Shown here in pieces: positions 6,640 to 26,096 of a stretch of 36,574 nt of DNA. Position 1 is the first letter of the stretch, and every line of letters begins with the position of its first letter. Made by a program: the position numbers and the translations under genes. Below the pieces are notes generated by a model that made no database searches, was not told the origin of the DNA, and saw only the letters and a program-made list of their open reading frames with translations. Source of the stretch: Candidatus Aminicenantota bacterium (lineage in GTDB: Bacteria > Acidobacteriota > Aminicenantia > Aminicenantales > Aminicenantaceae); the NCBI GenBank assembly GCA_023133225.1, contig JAGLWV010000071.1, forward strand, positions 1 to 36,574, given 5' to 3'.

Positions 6640-6693
6640 AAATCAGGGACATGTACCGATTTTGTGAAATCGGTAACGTGTCCCATGATTTCT
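6638..6693 (+). repeat. 56-nt hairpin repeat, copy 1
   Basis: agaaatcagggacatgtaccgattttgtgaaatcggtaacgtgtcccatgatttct; identical to copies at 17020 and 18138; imperfect inverted arms with TGTG loop. Confidence 0.95.
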
Positions 6694-7367
6694 TAATACT
6701 CTGGATGGTATCTTCTGATTTTGCTGGTGGATACTTTGTATTTTACTAAGCCAGCTGCGATGATTAAAGCACAAACGATGCCGTCTAAAACAGGAACCCC
6801 CAGTTTTTCTTCCAGATGCTTATCCAATCCTGTCATCCCAGCACATCCCAGGACGAGGACTTCTGCCATATCTTCCTTGATGGATGATTGTGCGGTCTCC
6901 ATGTACTTTAGCTCATCGCTTTTTTTAATCGTTTCTTTCCTGGGGGCTCTAACAGAGGCCAGAACATCCTGAAGGTGATATTTTCTCGCAAGGGCTTCTT
7001 TTATGGGTATAGAATGTTCGGAAGTTGTAAGGACTGAGAAGCGGTGTCCCAGCATAGAAGCAATTTTCATTGACGCTTCTGCAATTCCCACGACAGGTTT
7101 TCTGGTGATTTCTTTCATAACGTCGATATTGGGGTCATCGTGACAGGCGATGATAAAGGCATCAAATTTATCTTCATTTTCTCTAACAAGTTGTATCATC
7201 CCTGGAGCAGCTTTAATCTCATCCTCATAGGTTTCAATAAATTTCGGCGCCCCTGGCGTAGGTTTGCATGTTACCTCGAATTCTCCAGCGGAAAAACTTT
7301 CTGCGGTTCTCTGGATGGCTTCGGTCATTTCAAGGTCACTGTTTGGGTTTATGATCAATATCTTCAT
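6693..7367 (-). CDS. Asp/Glu/hydantoin racemase family protein
   Basis: MKILIINPNSDLEMTEAI start, two expected catalytic-Cys contexts (IIACHDDP and LVLGCAGMTGL). Confidence 0.9.
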   Translation of the reverse strand: MKILIINPNSDLEMTEAIQRTAESFSAGEFEVTCKPTPGAPKFIETYEDEIKAAPGMIQLVRENEDKFDAFIIACHDDPNIDVMKEITRKPVVGIAEASMKIASMLGHRFSVLTTSEHSIPIKEALARKYHLQDVLASVRAPRKETIKKSDELKYMETAQSSIKEDMAEVLVLGCAGMTGLDKHLEEKLGVPVLDGIVCALIIAAGLVKYKVSTSKIRRYHPEY

Positions 7368-11815: not shown

Positions 11816-13957
11816 GTGAAGATAAAACTGAATTGGCAGAGAAGGGCGATAATAATATTCGCCGGGACAATATTCCTCTTGAGCATCATACTAACCATAT
11901 TTGCTGTCCGGGAAGCGGAAAGAGAAAAGTTAATCAGGGAGAGCGAAATAGAAGAAGAACAACAAAGGTCATCAATACTCATTATTGATCAGGTCAAAGC
12001 AATTATATCTGAGGCAGAGGCAAGGATAATCAGGCTGGTTCGTGGCGCTCAAATCCAGTTTTATGGAAAAGAGCTTACTGAAGTTTGCAGGAGGATAGAA
12101 GAAAGCGAAGAAATAGTTGCTGATATTTTCCTTGTCAGCGGGAAAGGGGAAGTCAGTTTTCCGCTCTTCGAACCGCTTTTCCTTCTTCCCGGAGAAAAAC
12201 AGGAAATAAGAGAAAGACCCATTGAGATCGAGGCTGATTCTCTATTGAAAAGAGCAGAGACATCTGAATTCAAGACAAAAAATTATCCTCTGGCAATAAA
12301 GTCTTATCAAGAACTGATGGGTGCGACTTCTGATAGTGACTACCGAGCCATGCTCATAAACAGGATAGGAAGGTGCTACACGAAGTCCGGAAAACACCTT
12401 AAGGCTGTTCGGGCCTATCAAAAGATTTTAAAAGATTATCCAAGAAAAGTAAGCTCTGATGGAATACCGCTTGGAATCATAGCTCAGTATCAGATAGGAA
12501 ACATATACTTAGGGACAGGGAAAAAGATAGAGGCTGCTGAAGCATTCTTTGAACTCTACAACGGCCTTTTGGAATCCAAATGGCTGTTGAATAAGAATCA
12601 ATTTTTTTTCTACCGAAATAAAGTCAAAGATATGTTTAAAACATCCACAGTGGATACAGACGAGACAAGGGATGGAAAAAGTCTCATGAAAAAATGGAGT
12701 GAAATGGAGCAGATTGAAGAAGATAAATTAAGAAAGATGGAGACCATAGAGAATCTCATACAGAAGGTCATTCCCCTAATTAAGACAAAAAAGCCTGCCT
12801 CAAGTGAGGCCTCTGGAAGATTCCTTCACCTCTCTGAGACAATCGGAAAAGAACTTCATCTGGTTTCATATACACATATCAATGAACATTCAATCTTTGG
12901 CATAAAAATAGATTTCGAAGTCCTGGCAAAGAAGCTTCTTCCCCCAATTTTGGACAAGCTTCCACTGAGAAAAGAATGGCATGTCCAGATAAGAGATGAA
13001 TTTGGGAATACGGTCTCTGGCGAAGATATCACTAAGTTGATAGACCCAACTTCCCTGTTAACCTTTTCAAAAGGCTTTGAAGAAGATTTTCCTCCTTGGA
13101 AGGTTAATATTTTTCAAACCAACCCGGGCTCAGCGCAAAGGCAATTTAATCTGAGACGAAATATCTACATCCTCACTGTAGCAGTTGTAATATTCGCATT
13201 GCTTTTTGGAGGATTGTTGGCGATAAGGAGTACGGCGAAAGAATTGAAGTTGGCGAAGTTAAAGTCAGATTTCGTATCCACAGTTTCGCATGAATTCAGG
13301 ACACCTTTGACTTCTATTCGGTATTTAGCGGAAATGCTCCAGAGAGGGCGTGTGCAAGAAGAAGATAAGAAGCAAGAGTATTATGAAACGATAACCAGTG
13401 AAAGCGAACGCTTGAACAGACTCATTGAGAACTTACTCGATTTTTCGAAAATTGAAGCCGGAATGAAAGAGTATCAGTTTGAGGTGACAGATATAACCGA
13501 GTTGGCAAGAGACGTTAGCTCTCGATTTCAGAAGCAGATTGGCCGTGAGGAATTCATCATAGAGAGTGAGATGTCAGGCCAGGTGCCAAAAGTATCAGTA
13601 GATAGAGAGGCAATCTCCCGGGCTCTATTCAATTTGCTCGATAACGCTATAAAATATTCGGGGCAAAGCCGCAAGGCATTTCTTCGTGCCTGGCCTGACG
13701 GGGAAAACATATTTCTGGAAGTGCAGGATGAGGGAATTGGTATCAGCAAGCAAGAGCAGATGAAAATTTTTGAGAAATTTTATAGGTCTGATGATATACG
13801 GAACAGTCGCATCGAGGGAAGCGGTATTGGTCTAACCCTGGTAGCCCACATTGTCAAGGCACATGGAGGTGAAGTGCTGTTGGAAAGCGATGTGGGAAAA
13901 GGGACAAAGGTTACTATAAAACTGCCTGCGAAACGAAAAGTGGATAGAAAAGGTTGA
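11816..13957 (+). CDS. transmembrane sensor histidine kinase with a TPR-containing predicted extracytoplasmic sensor
   Basis: GTG start; TM helix, TPR-like segment (AMLINRIGRCYTKSGKHLKAVRAYQKILKDYP), second TM, FVSTVSHEFRTPLTSIRYL H-box, N/G1/G2 ATPase boxes. Confidence 0.95.
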   Translation: MKIKLNWQRRAIIIFAGTIFLLSIILTIFAVREAEREKLIRESEIEEEQQRSSILIIDQVKAIISEAEARIIRLVRGAQIQFYGKELTEVCRRIEESEEIVADIFLVSGKGEVSFPLFEPLFLLPGEKQEIRERPIEIEADSLLKRAETSEFKTKNYPLAIKSYQELMGATSDSDYRAMLINRIGRCYTKSGKHLKAVRAYQKILKDYPRKVSSDGIPLGIIAQYQIGNIYLGTGKKIEAAEAFFELYNGLLESKWLLNKNQFFFYRNKVKDMFKTSTVDTDETRDGKSLMKKWSEMEQIEEDKLRKMETIENLIQKVIPLIKTKKPASSEASGRFLHLSETIGKELHLVSYTHINEHSIFGIKIDFEVLAKKLLPPILDKLPLRKEWHVQIRDEFGNTVSGEDITKLIDPTSLLTFSKGFEEDFPPWKVNIFQTNPGSAQRQFNLRRNIYILTVAVVIFALLFGGLLAIRSTAKELKLAKLKSDFVSTVSHEFRTPLTSIRYLAEMLQRGRVQEEDKKQEYYETITSESERLNRLIENLLDFSKIEAGMKEYQFEVTDITELARDVSSRFQKQIGREEFIIESEMSGQVPKVSVDREAISRALFNLLDNAIKYSGQSRKAFLRAWPDGENIFLEVQDEGIGISKQEQMKIFEKFYRSDDIRNSRIEGSGIGLTLVAHIVKAHGGEVLLESDVGKGTKVTIKLPAKRKVDRKG

Positions 13958-13962
13958 TAAAA

Positions 13963-14655
13963 ATGGCGGAAAAAATGGATAAGATTTTAATTGTCGAGGA
14001 TGACAAAGCCATTCTCATGGGATTAAAAGATGACCTGGAGTTCGAGGGATACGGAGTCTCTATAGCCTTGGACGGCAAGGAGGGTTTAAAGCAGGCCATG
14101 GAGAAGGAGTTCCAGTTGATAATCCTTGATATATTGCTTCCAGAACTGAATGGCTTCGAGGTGTGCAAGAAGCTCAGAGAAGCAGGGAAAGACACACCGA
14201 TTCTGATGCTTACAGCGGCAAGGACAGAGGAGATGGATAAAGTGTTAGGGCTGGAGTTGGGCGCTGATGACTATGTCACAAAGCCTGTGGGATCAAGGGA
14301 GCTGGTGGCAAGAGTGAAGGCTATTTTAAGAAGGGCAAGACAGAAGGAGAAGAGTGGAGAAATTTACGAATTTGGTGATATCTCCGTAAATTTTAAAAGC
14401 CACGAGGTTCTCAAAGCCGGGCAGCAATTACACTTGACCGCTTTAGAATTTAAGCTGCTCAAGCTCTTCATCGAACACAGAGGAGAAGTACTGACTAGAG
14501 ATACCATGCTCGGTGAAACGTGGGGCGATGCTATTGTTTCTCCCCGGACAATAGATCCACATATCGTCCACCTGAGAAAGAAGATAGAGAATAATCCTTC
14601 TAACCCGGAATATATTATCAGTGTCAGAGGTGTCGGATACAAGTTTAACGGGTAA
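13963..14655 (+). CDS. OmpR/PhoB-family response regulator
   Basis: KILIVEDDKAILMGL receiver, IILDILLPELNGFEV, K in DDYVTKPVG, C-terminal winged helix (SPRTIDPHIVHLRKKIENNPSNPEYIISVRGVGYKF). ORF track starts at TTG 13954; ATG 13963 is the more likely start. Confidence 0.96.
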   Translation: MAEKMDKILIVEDDKAILMGLKDDLEFEGYGVSIALDGKEGLKQAMEKEFQLIILDILLPELNGFEVCKKLREAGKDTPILMLTAARTEEMDKVLGLELGADDYVTKPVGSRELVARVKAILRRARQKEKSGEIYEFGDISVNFKSHEVLKAGQQLHLTALEFKLLKLFIEHRGEVLTRDTMLGETWGDAIVSPRTIDPHIVHLRKKIENNPSNPEYIISVRGVGYKFNG

Positions 14656-14658
14656 GAA

Positions 14659-14700
14659 AATCTCAACTAAAAATTATTGAAAACTCAACTCAGTCTTAAC
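14659..14700 (-). promoter_or_regulatory. Second array of the same box (reverse orientation) with 11/22-bp spacing
   Basis: AATCTCAAC 14659-14667, AAACTCAAC 14681-14689, AGTCTTAAC 14692-14700 (reverse complements GTTGAGATT, GTTGAGTTT, GTTAAGACT). Confidence 0.5.
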
Positions 14701-14705
14701 ACTTA

Positions 14706-16886
14706 TTGGGAGGGAATTTGATATTATTCTCCAGGAAAAAGAATTTGAGAGGATATTTGATTGTGAATCCAACAAAAATTCACTTTTTGTTCTTCATAGC
14801 AATATTGATCCTGTTTTCTTTTACTCTTTTGCAAGAAGCCCTGTCCCAAGAATCAGCCGAGCAGCTCTACGAAGCCGCGTTATTTAAGAAGGAAGCAGAA
14901 GGAAATTTGGAAGGAGCTATAGAAATCTTCCGAAAGATTATCGCGGAGTTTCCTGAGAACAGAAAGATAGCCGCAAAAGCCCAGCTTCAAATCGGGCTGT
15001 GCTACGAAAAATTAGGCCTTAAAGAAGCCCAAAAAGCTTTTCAGAATGTTGTGGATAACTATCCTGAGCAGACAGAAATGGTTAATGTGGCAAAACAAAA
15101 ACTATCCCGTCTCTTGAGAGCTAAGACTGTCATCGAAAAAGGTGATAAGCGATTGAGAATGCGCAAGGTTTTCACAGGACATCCCAGAGACTTTGTAGGT
15201 ACACCTTCTCCTGATGGGCGATATCTTTCAACAGTGGATTGGGAGACAGGCGACCTGGCCATAAAAGAAATTCCCACAGGAAAGCTGCGTCGCCTCACCC
15301 ATAAGGAAAGTCGGAAGAAGTCGCAGGAGTATGCTTTCCTCTCCATATGGTCTCCTGATGGGAAAAAAGTGGCCTATTCCTGGCTTAATGAAGAGGAATT
15401 TTTTGAACTTCGTATCATCGGTCTGGACGGGGCAGAGCCTCGGATTCTCTATCGAAACAAAGAAAAATTCTTAGTTCAACCGTTTGAATGGTCCCCTGAC
15501 GGCAAACACATTTTGGCAGGACTTGGGGAATACCAAAGGATTACCCAAATAGCTACCATCTCTGTCTTGGATGGGTCGGTCCATATTCTCAAAGAGGGCT
15601 TGATCAACTCCGGACTCTATTCGTCAGACGGAAATTTCATCATCTATGATTTTGTTTCGATAGCTCAAGAGTCCCGGGGAAGTGATATTGCGTTGCTCCC
15701 TGTTCAGGGAGGTGAGGAAATTTCTCTGGTTAAACATCCTGCTCACGACTTCTCGCTCTGCTGGGATCTCCAAGGAGAGAGGCTGCTTTTTATGAGCGAC
15801 CGGACAGGAAATATGGATATATGGGCTCTTGAGGTGCAGGATGGAAAACCTCAGGGAAAACCCTATCTCATCAAAAAAAATATGGGAAGGATATCCCCAC
15901 TGGGTTTCACTGAGAGTGGTGCCTTGTATTACGAGATATATACAAGTATGGAGGATGTTTATACCGCGACTCTGGATTTAGAGCAAAATTCTCTTTTAGC
16001 TCTACCAAGCAGAGCAGAAAGCTTGTTTATCGGAGCTAACGGTTCTCCTGACTTCTCTCCGGACGGGAAATACCTTGCCTATATCTCAAAACGGACCTTC
16101 GGGCCTGGGCGCTTCGAACCCCTGGCTATATGTATTCTTTCTCTGGAGTCGGGCATAAAACGTGAACTTTTCCCAGACCTAGAGAATATGAGGTTTATCC
16201 GCTGGTCTGCTGATGGGAAAAATTTCTTTTCTTTTGGATTCGACAAAAAAGGACTCAAGGGTCTGTATTCCATTGATGCCCAAACAGGCGAAGTAGATCT
16301 TATCTTGAAGTGTAAGATACTTGAGGAGTTTATCCCTGAGATCGATGTGTTCCCTGATGGAAAAAAGATTGTCTACAAGAAATACAAGAGGGCAAAGGCA
16401 GGAACGGGTAGTATCATGAGCATAAGAGTCCGGGATATTCAAAGCGGGAAAGAAGAAGAGATTTATCATGAGGAGAATGCTTCGGAGAGTCATCATGTGG
16501 CTTTATCTTCTGATGGGAAGTGGATAGCTTTTGATGACATAGATTCACGATGGATTTTGAAAGTCATCAGAGTCACAGGAGGAGATTCCAGAGAGTTATG
16601 TAGAACAAGATCTGGAGAAAGTCTTTCTTCATTCGATTGGCGGCCTGACAGCCGAGAAATATTTTTTACAAAATGGATAAAAGGCAAAAAACTCACTCAG
16701 TTATGGCGATTGAGTTTAGAGGGTGAAGAACCACAAAGAATTGAGTTACCCATAAGGGTAATGAGGGAATTTTGTTTTCATCCGGACGGGAAGCGAATTG
16801 CCTTTAGTGCAGCCTACAGAGAAGTAGAGATCTGGGTGATGGAAAATTTGCTTCGCCTTAAGAAAGTCGAAAAAATATTCAAATGA
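14706..16886 (+). CDS. TPR plus TolB/PD40-type beta-propeller protein with N-terminal signal/TM
   Basis: N-terminal hydrophobic segment, TPR (IFRKIIAEFPENRKIAAKAQLQIGLCYEKLG), repeated SPDGK motifs. Start is uncertain: TTG 14706 in the track, downstream TTG/GTG possible. Confidence 0.88.
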   Translation: MGGNLILFSRKKNLRGYLIVNPTKIHFLFFIAILILFSFTLLQEALSQESAEQLYEAALFKKEAEGNLEGAIEIFRKIIAEFPENRKIAAKAQLQIGLCYEKLGLKEAQKAFQNVVDNYPEQTEMVNVAKQKLSRLLRAKTVIEKGDKRLRMRKVFTGHPRDFVGTPSPDGRYLSTVDWETGDLAIKEIPTGKLRRLTHKESRKKSQEYAFLSIWSPDGKKVAYSWLNEEEFFELRIIGLDGAEPRILYRNKEKFLVQPFEWSPDGKHILAGLGEYQRITQIATISVLDGSVHILKEGLINSGLYSSDGNFIIYDFVSIAQESRGSDIALLPVQGGEEISLVKHPAHDFSLCWDLQGERLLFMSDRTGNMDIWALEVQDGKPQGKPYLIKKNMGRISPLGFTESGALYYEIYTSMEDVYTATLDLEQNSLLALPSRAESLFIGANGSPDFSPDGKYLAYISKRTFGPGRFEPLAICILSLESGIKRELFPDLENMRFIRWSADGKNFFSFGFDKKGLKGLYSIDAQTGEVDLILKCKILEEFIPEIDVFPDGKKIVYKKYKRAKAGTGSIMSIRVRDIQSGKEEEIYHEENASESHHVALSSDGKWIAFDDIDSRWILKVIRVTGGDSRELCRTRSGESLSSFDWRPDSREIFFTKWIKGKKLTQLWRLSLEGEEPQRIELPIRVMREFCFHPDGKRIAFSAAYREVEIWVMENLLRLKKVEKIFK

Positions 16887-17124: not shown

Positions 17125-18108
17125 TTAGTTAGTGGTCGGATTCTTGATAAAGTCGATGTAGAAAGAGAAGTTGCCTGTTGCTTCAAGTGGAACGATGGTC
17201 ACCGTCTTAACGCCTCCTTTTTTCCCTTTTCCTTCTGCTCTTTGTGTATATTGTTCTTGAAACAGGAGGTCTGCGTCTAGGCTATCTGTTGTATAGGGGT
17301 TACTTCCAACACATATTCTCCATACTCCATCGCTACTTGTTATTCCATTGTGATAGATATAACTACTTTCCTCCAGTCTCACAATCCAGATGTTCATATT
17401 ATTAAAAATACCATCATCGTAGTTTCTCTCATCGCATTCTACATTGTGGAATTCAGTCTCAGGATTAAGAAAATCTTCTTGATTCTGCACACGGATCTTA
17501 ATCCAGTCAGAATAACTTGTGAATTTAACTGGAACATCATATTCCCAATTTTCATCTTCAATACCATCAATGATATAACCTAAACCTTTCGTAAATGAAC
17601 CTTGGCCAACCTGAAATTTCAGATTAAAATATTCGTAATTATCACCATTATCCGTATAAGGCTGATGCCTGTTCAAAAAACACTCCATGCATATTGCTGG
17701 AATGTTACTGCAGCCTCCGGGAAAGATGCAGGAGGGCCCTTCATCTGGATAGATTACATAATCATCAAAATAAACATTTTGAAAGCCCGCAAAACGACCT
17801 GTAGGATTGAGCAGCTTGAAAGAGAAATAATAATGAAATGCGGTTTGACCTTTACCAATCCTCGAAGAACCTTTTTCCACTTTTATTCTGACATCAATAT
17901 CATTGTTTATGTACGTAAAGCCGTCACCGTATAACATTGTACCTTCAGTTTCTGCTACCGGAAGCTGAACTGCCCAAGTCGCTTCTGGTGGTTTAACGGG
18001 TTTCTTGCCAATACTATTAGCCTGCAGAGAGCTGATTCCAAAGAAAATCAAGGTGCAAATAGCAACACCTAAAATTCCAAAAAGACTCAATTTTCGGATT
18101 TTTCTCAT
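17125..18108 (-). CDS. secreted protein of unknown function
   Basis: 327-aa ORF with signal peptide (MRKIRKLSLFGILGVAICTLIFFGISSLQA), Cys-rich CIFPGGCSNIPAICMECF segment, AGGAGG SD upstream (reverse strand). Confidence 0.8.
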   Translation of the reverse strand: MRKIRKLSLFGILGVAICTLIFFGISSLQANSIGKKPVKPPEATWAVQLPVAETEGTMLYGDGFTYINNDIDVRIKVEKGSSRIGKGQTAFHYYFSFKLLNPTGRFAGFQNVYFDDYVIYPDEGPSCIFPGGCSNIPAICMECFLNRHQPYTDNGDNYEYFNLKFQVGQGSFTKGLGYIIDGIEDENWEYDVPVKFTSYSDWIKIRVQNQEDFLNPETEFHNVECDERNYDDGIFNNMNIWIVRLEESSYIYHNGITSSDGVWRICVGSNPYTTDSLDADLLFQEQYTQRAEGKGKKGGVKTVTIVPLEATGNFSFYIDFIKNPTTN

Positions 18109-18137
18109 AAAAACCTCCTTTTCTCCTTTTTATTTTC

Positions 18138-18193
18138 AGAAATCAGGGACATGTACCGATTTTGTGAAATCGGTAACGTGTCCCATGATTTCT
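18138..18193 (+). repeat. 56-nt hairpin repeat, copy 3
   Basis: Identical to copy 1 by direct reading; same orientation. Confidence 0.95.
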
Positions 18194-18348
18194 AACTGGT
18201 ACATTTTTTGGCCTTATAATTAATGATCTTATCCTCTCCCATCACCTCCTTTTTTAAGAGACATGGCTTCATCCTCTATTTAAATTGAATTTTCATCCCT
18301 CAGGCCCTGATCCCGGAATTTGCGTTATTAATTATATAGGAATCTTGA

Positions 18349-18400
18349 ACTGAGATTGGTTAAGATTCTGTTGAGATTTGGTTAAGATTTGATTGAATTA
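18349..18400 (+). promoter_or_regulatory. Array of GTTRAGATT-like boxes with 11-bp periodicity (candidate OmpR-family regulator site)
   Basis: GTTAAGATT 18359, GTTGAGATT 18370, GTTAAGATT 18381, degenerate ATTGAATT 18392; partial CTGAGATT just upstream. Confidence 0.55.
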
Positions 18401-18636
18401 TTTATTTTGGTTTTATGGTAAAGTCCCGTGATGATATGTCATTGCGCACTGGCAAAGGCAGGCACGGCAATATCATAGAAGGAAGAGGGACTACTCTTTC
18501 TCTTCAGCTTGTTCTGGCAAAAGGGCTGCATTCACAACCAGATTGGAGGGTGATGAATTGTTTGACTCTTTCGTCATTAATGACTATTCTTTTAAAAGAA
18601 AAAACAGAGACAAAGGATAATACGTACTAAACGAAT

Positions 18637-21600
18637 ATGAAATGCCCCCAGTGTCATTTTGAGAATCCTGACAACACTCGTTTCTGCGGAAATTGTGGGA
18701 TACAACTTCAATCCTCAAAAGGAATACCTGCCTTCCCTACAGAAACCCTCCAGATCTCCCTGAAAGAGTTAACCAGAGGGATCACTTTTGCAGGAAGATT
18801 CGAAGTCATCGAAAAACTTGGTCAGGGAGGCATGGCCTCGGTCTATCGGGTTGTAGACAAAAATATAGACGAAGAGGTTGCGTTGAAGGTTCTCATTCCA
18901 GAAGTTGCGGCCGATGAAAAAACGATCGAACGTTTCCGGAACGAACTTAAGTTTGCGCGAAAGATCTCCCATAAAAATGTCTGCCGGATGTATGACCTTA
19001 ATGATGAGAAAGGGACCCAGTACATCACTATGGAATACGTTCCGGGTGAAGATTTGAAGAGCACGATCAAAAGGGTGGGTCAGTTAAGTACAGGAAAGGC
19101 TGTATCCATAACCAAGCAGGTATGTGAGGGGTTGTCTGAAGCACACAGGTTAGGAGTTGTTCACCGGGATATGAAACCGCAGAATATTATGGTTGATAGA
19201 GAAGGGAATGCAAGAATTATGGATTTTGGGATATCGCGTTCCCTTAAAGCAAAAGGGATAACAGAATTAGGCATGATTATCGGGACACCGGAGTATATGT
19301 CTCCTGAACAGGCTGAAGGAAAGGATATTGACCAGAGGTCAGACATTTATTCCATGGGAATTATTCTATTCGAGATGGTAACGGGGCAGCTGCCTTTTGA
19401 GGGAGAAACACCCTTAAGCGTGGCCATGAAACAAAAGAGCGAAAAACCCCGGGAGCCAAAAGAACTCAATCCACACATTGCCGAGGACATTAACCACCTG
19501 ATATTGAAATGTTTGGAGAAGGCAAAAGAGAAAAGGTATCAGACACCAGACGAACTCCTTAGAGATTTGATAAAGATAGGGAAAGGTATTCCCACCACAG
19601 AGAGGATTCTTCCCAGGAGAAAATCCATTACTTCGAAGCAAATAACCGTAAGATTTACCATGAGAAAGCTCTATATACCGGCTTTAATTTTGATTGCTGT
19701 TTTAATAATCGGGTGGGTAATCTTGCGTCTTATTTCCCAAGAAGAGGCGGTGTCTTTTCCCCCCGGCAAACCCTCGCTTGCCGTCATGTATTTTGAAAAC
19801 AATACAGGAGACGAGAAGTTAGACCACTGGAGAAAGGCCCTGTCTGATTTGCTCATAGCAGATTTATCACAATCAAAGTATATCTCGGTATTAAGCGGAG
19901 AGAAGTTGTTCAATCTCCTCGAGGAAATGAATCTTCTGGAAGCGAAAAGTTACTCTTCGAGGGTCTTAAATGAACTTTCCAAACGAGGAGGGGTCGAGTA
20001 CGTATTGGTGGGAAAAATAGCCATGGCAGGCGATGCCTTTAGAATTGATGCTTTGCTTCAGGAAGCAGATACAGGTAATGCCATGGGCACTGAAAGGGTG
20101 GAAGGGATTGGAGAAGAAAGCTTCTTTTCCATGGTGGATGAGCTAACAAAGAAGGTCAAGGAGAATTTTAAGCTTTCTGCTGAAGAGATAGCCAGTGACC
20201 TTGATGAAGAAGCCGGAATGATCACTAGCAGTTCTCCGGAGGCTTATCGATATTACAGCGAGGGAATGAACTTTCACAACAAGGGAGATTATCTGAAAAG
20301 TATTCCCCTCTTTGAAACGGCAGTAGCCATCGATCCTGAGTTTGCTATGGCTTACAGAACTATGGCAGTAGCTTATATGAATCTGGGATACAGGTCTGAG
20401 GCAAAGAGACGCTTCCAAAAGGCATTTGAATTGAGTAACCGGGTATCAGATAGAGAGCGCTATCAGATCCAGGGAGTTTTTTACGGTCAGTCAGAAAAAA
20501 CTTATGATAAAGCCATTGAAGTGTATAATAATTTATTGGAGATTTATCCAGAAGATATAAATGGAAATAACAACCTTGGGAGTTTGTATGCAGATTTAGA
20601 ACTTTGGGATAAGGCCAGAGAACAATATGAAGTGAACATCCGCAACAAGGATCTAGCCATCCAGTCCTATAATAATCTAGCCAATGTATTAATGGCTAAA
20701 GGATTGTATGGCGAGGCTAAAAATATATTAGAGCATTACCTGAAAGAAATTTCGGATAATGTTTATCTCCGTACTGTTTTAGCCGATACATATATCAGTC
20801 AAGGAAAATATGAACTAGCCCTTAAGCAGGCACTAAAGGCTTTTTCCCTTGACCCGACACATTACCGTAATTTCTTAATAAAGGGAGATATCGGCCTCTT
20901 TAAAGGGGATTTAGCTGGCGCAGAAAAAGAGTACCAGAAACTGCTTGATAAGGAAGCACCCCTTGCTCATGATTACGGGCTAAGCAGGCTAGGAGCCTTA
21001 TATCTGTTGCAGGGAAAATTCAAGGAGGCAAGAGACCAGGCAGAGCAGGGAATTGAACTGGCTGAAATGCTTGGAGAAAAGTCCTGGAAATCATGGTTTC
21101 ATTTATACCTAGCTTATCTGTATCTCAAATCAGGAAATCCTGAACAAGCTTTGAAGGAATGTGAGGTGGGGTGGACAAGTGCCGGAGAAGGGGAGAATTT
21201 AAACTGGCAAAGACGGGCGCTGCATTTTAAAGGGCTTATTTATCTTGAAGTGAAATCGATCGATCAAGCTCAGAAAGCAGCAGACGAGCTCAAGGAACTT
21301 ATTGAAAAAGGGAAGCACAGCAACTCCATAAGGCTTTACCATCATTTATTGGGACAGATAGCGTTTGAAAGGGGGGAGCTTTCCAACGCCTTGATACACT
21401 TTAAGGAAGCTTTGTCCCTGTTACCCTTTCAATATCCAGAAAAAAAGCGTATTGAGCATGCCTTATTTATTGATTCTCTGGCCTCAACCTATTACATGCA
21501 GAGAGATTTCGATAAGGCTCGAGAAGAATACGAAAAGATCATTTCTCTGACTGTAGGCAGGTTGTATTACGGAGATTTGTATGCCAGGAGCTTTTACATG

Positions 21601-21747
21601 CTGGGTAAGATTTACCAGGAAAAGGGCTTAGAAGAAAAAGCCAAAGAGAACTATCAGAAATTTCTTGATATATGGAAAAATGCTGACTCTGAATTTCCGG
21701 AATTAATTGATGCTAAAAAGCAATTAAGCTCCTTGAATGATCAGTAA
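18637..21747 (+). CDS. Ser/Thr protein kinase with N-terminal zinc ribbon, TM, TolB/FlgO-like segment and C-terminal TPR array
   Basis: MKCPQCHFENPDNTRFCGNCG; kinase motifs LGQGGMASVYRV, VHRDMKPQNIMV, DFGISR, GTPEYMSPEQ; TM ~aa 345-365; TPRs. Confidence 0.96.
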   Translation: MKCPQCHFENPDNTRFCGNCGIQLQSSKGIPAFPTETLQISLKELTRGITFAGRFEVIEKLGQGGMASVYRVVDKNIDEEVALKVLIPEVAADEKTIERFRNELKFARKISHKNVCRMYDLNDEKGTQYITMEYVPGEDLKSTIKRVGQLSTGKAVSITKQVCEGLSEAHRLGVVHRDMKPQNIMVDREGNARIMDFGISRSLKAKGITELGMIIGTPEYMSPEQAEGKDIDQRSDIYSMGIILFEMVTGQLPFEGETPLSVAMKQKSEKPREPKELNPHIAEDINHLILKCLEKAKEKRYQTPDELLRDLIKIGKGIPTTERILPRRKSITSKQITVRFTMRKLYIPALILIAVLIIGWVILRLISQEEAVSFPPGKPSLAVMYFENNTGDEKLDHWRKALSDLLIADLSQSKYISVLSGEKLFNLLEEMNLLEAKSYSSRVLNELSKRGGVEYVLVGKIAMAGDAFRIDALLQEADTGNAMGTERVEGIGEESFFSMVDELTKKVKENFKLSAEEIASDLDEEAGMITSSSPEAYRYYSEGMNFHNKGDYLKSIPLFETAVAIDPEFAMAYRTMAVAYMNLGYRSEAKRRFQKAFELSNRVSDRERYQIQGVFYGQSEKTYDKAIEVYNNLLEIYPEDINGNNNLGSLYADLELWDKAREQYEVNIRNKDLAIQSYNNLANVLMAKGLYGEAKNILEHYLKEISDNVYLRTVLADTYISQGKYELALKQALKAFSLDPTHYRNFLIKGDIGLFKGDLAGAEKEYQKLLDKEAPLAHDYGLSRLGALYLLQGKFKEARDQAEQGIELAEMLGEKSWKSWFHLYLAYLYLKSGNPEQALKECEVGWTSAGEGENLNWQRRALHFKGLIYLEVKSIDQAQKAADELKELIEKGKHSNSIRLYHHLLGQIAFERGELSNALIHFKEALSLLPFQYPEKKRIEHALFIDSLASTYYMQRDFDKAREEYEKIISLTVGRLYYGDLYARSFYMLGKIYQEKGLEEKAKENYQKFLDIWKNADSEFPELIDAKKQLSSLNDQ

Positions 21748-25927: not shown

Positions 25928-26044
25928 ATTATCTCTTTTTATCATCGCTAGCCCTGTTAGTTTTGATACATCTAACAGGGCCAGCGACCAAAGGGAGCAC
26001 ATAGAAAGTGGGGCAGTAAAAAAGGGCAGTAAAAAAGGGGACAT

Positions 26045-26096
26045 AAAAAAGGGGACAGGCTACTTTTTTCCTAAAAAGTTGCCTGTCCCCTTTTTT
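26045..26096. repeat. GGGGACAGG-type long hairpin flanked by A/T runs
   Basis: AAAAAAGGGGACAGGCTACTTTTTT cct AAAAAGTTGCCTGTCCCCTTTTTT. Confidence 0.8.

Follow-up and report, generated by a model that had tools for sequence, protein, structure and literature searches.

A putative response-regulator operator of the OmpR/PhoB type in an Aminicenantia genome, predicted to serve a leftward promoter next to a two-component cassette

Binding sites of response regulators (RRs) have been described in several systems to which a direct-repeat array can be compared, namely (i) PhoB, a winged-helix RR by which 11-nt repeats are bound head-to-tail and sigma70 is contacted (PMC4415409), (ii) ArcA of E. coli, the sites of which are repeats at 11 bp centre-to-centre, mostly of three to five units (PMC3798270), and (iii) PhoP of Salmonella, where a box placed 12 or 23 nt ahead of the -10 element is active in one orientation only (PMC3335776). 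For the Aminicenantia, no two-component promoter work was found in the literature searched. The window, i.e., the whole stretch of 36,574 nucleotides analysed here, carries at 18349-18400 an 11-bp array which is a real and well-supported RR operator of the OmpR/PhoB type, with putative binding. The kind of operator is already known; the target and direction are corrected here, from which a two-component system of the Aminicenantia would gain a candidate regulator, a direction and a short list of predicted targets. The features considered are as follows.

11816..13957, plus strand: cognate histidine kinase (HK), with TPR, HisKA and HATPase_c domains
13954..14655, plus strand: RR of the OmpR/PhoB family (Response_reg PF00072, Trans_reg_C PF00486), proposed binder
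14659..14700, minus strand: second array (GTTAAGACT, GTTGAGTTT, a degenerate box, GTTGAGATT), between the RR and PD40 genes
14706..16886, plus strand: TPR/PD40 beta-propeller gene, second predicted target
14722..14727, plus strand: -10 element TATTAT of the PD40 promoter, 21 nt past the last box
17125..18108, minus strand: predicted target, a 327-aa protein with an N-terminal hydrophobic signal and a 66% orthologue in genome G022
18109..18324, minus strand: predicted long leader of about 215 nt, the transcription start being placed from the -10 element
18329..18401, minus strand: whole promoter module (array and -10 element), matching a model built from relatives only at E 1.5e-7 over the whole genome
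18331..18336, minus strand: -10 element TATAAT (perfect), 22 nt past the last TTAAC box
18349..18400, plus strand as first written: 11-bp direct-repeat array, with boxes at 18359, 18370 and 18381 and degenerate boxes at 18349 and 18392
18562..18590, plus strand: sigma70-like promoter of the kinase gene, TTGACT-N17-TATTCT, 46 bp ahead of the ATG
18637..21747, plus strand: Ser/Thr kinase with TPR repeats, judged not to be the target, its homologues being without array

The array lies in AT-rich, intergenic DNA, in the divergent gap between the genes at 17125-18108 and 18637. The original prediction saw four GTTRAGATT boxes at exact 11-bp spacing; three of them are indeed perfect and 11 bp apart, i.e., GTTAAGATT (18359-18367), GTTGAGATT (18370-18378) and GTTAAGATT (18381-18389), but the fourth, ATTGAATTA (18392-18400), is degenerate. 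A half-box, ACTGAGATT (18349-18357), stands 10 bp ahead of the box at 18359, and the boxes read TTAACNNAATC on the minus strand. No other stretch of the window shows period 11 as strongly, and TRF gives the array a score of 51 at this period. Its three in-phase boxes match at 27/27 box positions, a score that did not rise above 19 in any of 15 Markov-shuffled windows. The metagenome-assembled genome (3.08 Mb, about 80% complete) was covered by pattern and model searches, in which the exact two-box pattern has this array as its sole occurrence and the reversed control pattern has none. Over 119 genomes, the three-box pattern with at most 3 mismatches gave 10 matches vs 0 for the control; the general three-box pattern GTTAANANTT also gave 10 matches vs 0 for its own control.

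The regulator proposed originally (as 13963..14655) is the likely binder, and the assignment of the direct repeats to the OmpR/PhoB type was borne out. At least two direct half-sites about 11 bp apart are present, a winged-helix RR with a receiver domain is encoded about 4 kb away, and the same boxes recur directly 3' of the RR gene, in a second array (14700-14659) which starts directly after the RR stop codon and had been overlooked. The orthologues are arranged alike. Among named relatives, the one closest to the RR (87% identity) is encoded on the ‘Candidatus Aminicenantes’ chromosome CP070825, and RR relatives with 73-87% identity have the same boxes beside the RR gene in G013, G019, G002, G022, G024 and G027, where the array holds the same post-RR position as 14700-14659, as well as at loci L128 and L131. 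The array is also found ahead of the HK gene in cassettes of G002, G019, G020, G024, G027 and G038. Conservation beside RR orthologues thus concerns the cassette promoters, whereas the target orthologue has no counterpart of the 18349-18400 array.

Direction can be read from the position of the core promoter. When 32 arrays are aligned on the TTAAC strand, a TATAAT-like hexamer appears 21-22 nt past the last box (offset 22-27), with a mean match to TATAAT of 3.97/6, as compared with 1.93 when other offsets are taken; the mean match of 2000 jittered controls was 3.13 at most. Eight of the 32 arrays, taken from another collection or obtained by a separate pattern search in relatives, obey the rule to within about 1 base; the array at L117 fits only when one further, weaker box is counted by eye. 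The placement relative to the core promoter is therefore fixed, the -10 element of the window lying at offset 23-28, i.e., 1 nt farther than the rule. In the opposite direction, the same 32 arrays show no comparable promoter element, the best mean match to TATAAT being 2.63, and no conserved plus-strand core promoter stands downstream of the window array, toward the Ser/Thr kinase gene. The promoter-like DNA which had been pointed out to the right of the array was not confirmed as such, the conserved -10 element being found on the other side and on the other strand. In these cassettes, the GTT strand of the arrays runs opposite to the downstream gene. Taking the -10 element as -12 to -7, the boxes span about -35 to -80 of a leftward promoter devoid of a good -35 element. 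It appears likely that the array serves a promoter directed leftward, into 17125-18108, that this promoter is activated by the RR and that the PD40 gene is the second output of the same RR.

The sequence-only model R1, built from 14 promoters of relatives and including no sequence from the source genome, recovers both arrays of the window when run over the whole genome, i.e., 18401-18329 on the minus strand (E 1.5e-7) and 14658-14729 on the plus strand (E 5.7e-7), the next match standing at E 0.136. A boxes-only position weight matrix from which the most similar promoter, that of G053, was left out likewise puts 18402 minus in first place (42.9) within the window, followed by 14657 plus (37.9). 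In 60 genomes, most R1 matches precede PD40 or HK genes of RR cassettes, many of them outside the model set, and two weak matches (L232 and L234) do not; the ten matches checked in relatives, most of them again outside the set, all lead in the same direction into PD40 or HK genes (10/10). Across 41 genomes, a close relative of the RR (69% identity or more) and an R1 match tend to be present together (9/10 vs 2/31, Fisher p 1.5e-6), which is in part to be expected given that many sites lie directly beside the RR gene. Contrary to what a motif widespread in promoters would give, the relatives-only model finds this version of the array at two promoters of the genome only, and the regulon of the RR is, as predicted from these searches, very small and local.

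Mechanistically, we infer that the phosphorylated RR (13954-14655) would bind head-to-tail on three to five 11-bp half-sites and, once bound, would recruit RNA polymerase to a promoter with a perfect -10 (TATAAT, 18336-18331) and a poor -35, switching on the gene at 17125-18108, which presumably encodes a secreted protein. The same RR may bind the second array (14700-14659) and activate the PD40/TPR gene. Because the PD40 gene and the 17125-18108 gene are arranged tail-to-tail, a single two-component cassette would, through its pair of arrays, induce two adjacent outputs together. Of note, the ORF start of the PD40 gene (TTG 14706) overlaps its predicted promoter, and for this reason the true start is probably GTG 14763, which is preceded by GAGAGGA. 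Activation by the RR is the most likely mode of action because the boxes cover about -35 to -80, the region in which activators of the OmpR/PhoB type bind, no good -35 is present and PhoB, ArcA and PhoP offer parallels.

The predicted target itself matches no Pfam or NCBIfam family, and its AlphaFold model was set aside (mean pLDDT 34, four sequences). The orthologue in G022 (66%) is tail-to-tail with a PD40 gene sharing 74% identity with that of the window, and a distant relative in G007 (34%) is tail-to-tail with a PD40 gene of 57%. The G022 pair (L098:2043-6018, G022:C41) adjoins a different RR, 51% identical, so that the PD40 and secreted-protein genes are kept together beside another RR, as if the output pair had changed regulator. 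This G022 orthologue is the only close one and has no same-direction array upstream; an array near it was considered as its operator and rejected, the orientation assigning it to the divergent HK gene. Because of this other RR and the missing same-direction array, the link between operator and target is seen in the source genome only, and its lack of conservation at G022 is the main weakness of the leftward target. Also counting against this target is the closest array elsewhere, in G053 (L211:11055-11140, G053:C5), which resembles that of the window box for box and precedes an unrelated gene of the arylmalonate decarboxylase/Asp-Glu racemase family. An Asp/Glu racemase gene is also present in the window (6693-7367), near the same two-component system as the array. 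The long leader, together with the -10 element 1 nt off the rule, points against the leftward reading as well. This leader holds a 26-aa ORF (18192-18272) and, at about 18138-18193, a strong hairpin (z -2.8), and post-transcriptional control of the target gene via the leader is possible. The hairpin has no plasmid match, and Rfam gave no match at gathering score, the single sub-threshold match (16.8 vs 174.8 bits) being ignored. Separately, a tandem repeat of 13-14 bp, GGGCAGTAAAAAA / TAAAAAAGGGGACA, lies at 26011-26057 of the window, and a similar motif, AAAAAAGGGGAC, is found in a hairpin ahead of the G022 target orthologue.

Other assignments of the array were weighed against leftward activation by this RR. 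The original prediction had the array serve the Ser/Thr kinase gene, and regulation of this gene from about 240-290 bp upstream, alone or with the leftward gene, would suit the divergent intergenic position, the GTTAA strand reading toward the kinase and the AT-rich DNA that follows the array. The 32 arrays, however, have no conserved promoter element in that direction, ten close homologues of the kinase (52-64% identity) have no array upstream, R1 finds no site at 17 kinase-homologue loci, and the kinase gene possesses its own sigma70-like promoter, similar elements standing near the start codon at L079, L085 and L086. The kinase gene was rejected as the target on account of its own promoter, its array-less homologues and the absent rightward core element, and a role of the array at this gene is judged improbable. 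As for the binder, the genome has 30 RR matches, and cross-binding by another of them as main binder of an OmpR/PhoB-type operator is conceivable since paralogous systems have similar arrays, i.e., GTGAAGATT beside a paralogue of 59% identity (contig C344) and GTTAAAAGTTT at four other places. The box letters of the array nonetheless best match the arrays beside this RR and its orthologues, unlike the paralogue arrays, and the recognition helix VSPRTIDPHIVHLR is conserved among RRs with the GTTRAGATT box, whereas the C344 paralogue has VLPRTVDKHIAELR; another main binder is accordingly unlikely.

That the RR would instead block the leftward promoter finds a precedent in ArcA, which has the same multi-repeat site layout and often represses (PMC3798270). 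Yet the boxes reach from farther upstream to the -35 position, their distance from the -10 element is constant and a good -35 is missing, and the same work contrasts the unfixed location and orientation of ArcA sites with direct recruitment by OmpR and PhoB; repression is thus considered quite unlikely. A chance or structural repeat of no function, as AT-rich intergenic DNA may harbour, can practically be discarded, the array far exceeding its controls, whether shuffled or reversed in pattern, and showing conservation at orthologous positions. Activation of the leftward promoter by the neighbouring RR remains the preferred reading, and a warning for annotation follows, namely that an array located between two divergent genes may serve another gene than the one it seems to precede.

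Beyond this locus, tandem HK-RR-PD40 cassettes of about 5 kb each, several per locus, are found in relatives (L046-L047, G027:C36; L048-L049, G002:C143; L044, G024:C1; L050, G025:C20), which suggests that the two-component unit has been duplicated as a whole, and more than once. Arrays of the GTTAAAAGTTT type, three to four times repeated and with the same -10 spacing, form a second family (L057:4206-4248, L058:9897-9939, L059:8544-8586, L060:8592-8634, L102:1002 and 5584), which precedes a 5'-nucleotidase-like gene, NAD-dependent epimerase-type genes and lipid-type genes (UbiA, DAGK, SDR). This family is perhaps a phosphate or lipid regulon of the class. The corresponding operon in G010 was ruled out as a pst operon, its Pfam matches being UbiA, DAGK and SDR genes, and for this reason the family is not termed a Pho regulon, despite the one array ahead of the 5'-nucleotidase-like gene. 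More generally, the chances seem evenly balanced that Aminicenantia share a strict promoter grammar for their HK-RR-PD40 cassettes, which are expanded and often repeated in tandem, i.e., three to five TTAAC-type 11-bp half-sites, 21 nt and a -10 element, with box letters specific to the RR lineage, and that the 327-aa protein and PD40 form a co-induced, transferable output pair able to change RR partner (as in G022). If true, the sequence could reveal which genes dozens of uncharacterised two-component systems control, and in which direction; at the least, a simple promoter rule is available that can be tested on many paralogous cassettes.

Among the systems described, the PHO box of PhoB/PhoP (E. 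coli, B. subtilis, Streptomyces) is alike in its 11-nt direct repeats upstream of a -10 element with no good -35, but differs in its letters, CTGTCAT-type half-sites being absent from the 18349-18400 array, which reads TTAACNNAATC. The Pho regulon further differs in its phosphate genes, whereas cassette genes lie downstream of GTTRAGATT arrays, the neighbours here being PD40/TPR, HK and the 327-aa protein and not phosphate genes. ArcA shares the 11-bp repeats in three to five units; its sites have no conserved location or orientation and its regulon is global, whereas in the present arrays both are fixed to the -10 element and the regulon is tiny. Architecture III of Salmonella PhoP is alike in that a box is placed 21-23 nt, or about two helical turns, from the -10 element and has one active orientation, but here three to five boxes stand in a row, and the GTT-type strand of the arrays reads away from the -10 element, opposite to the direct orientation of PhoP.
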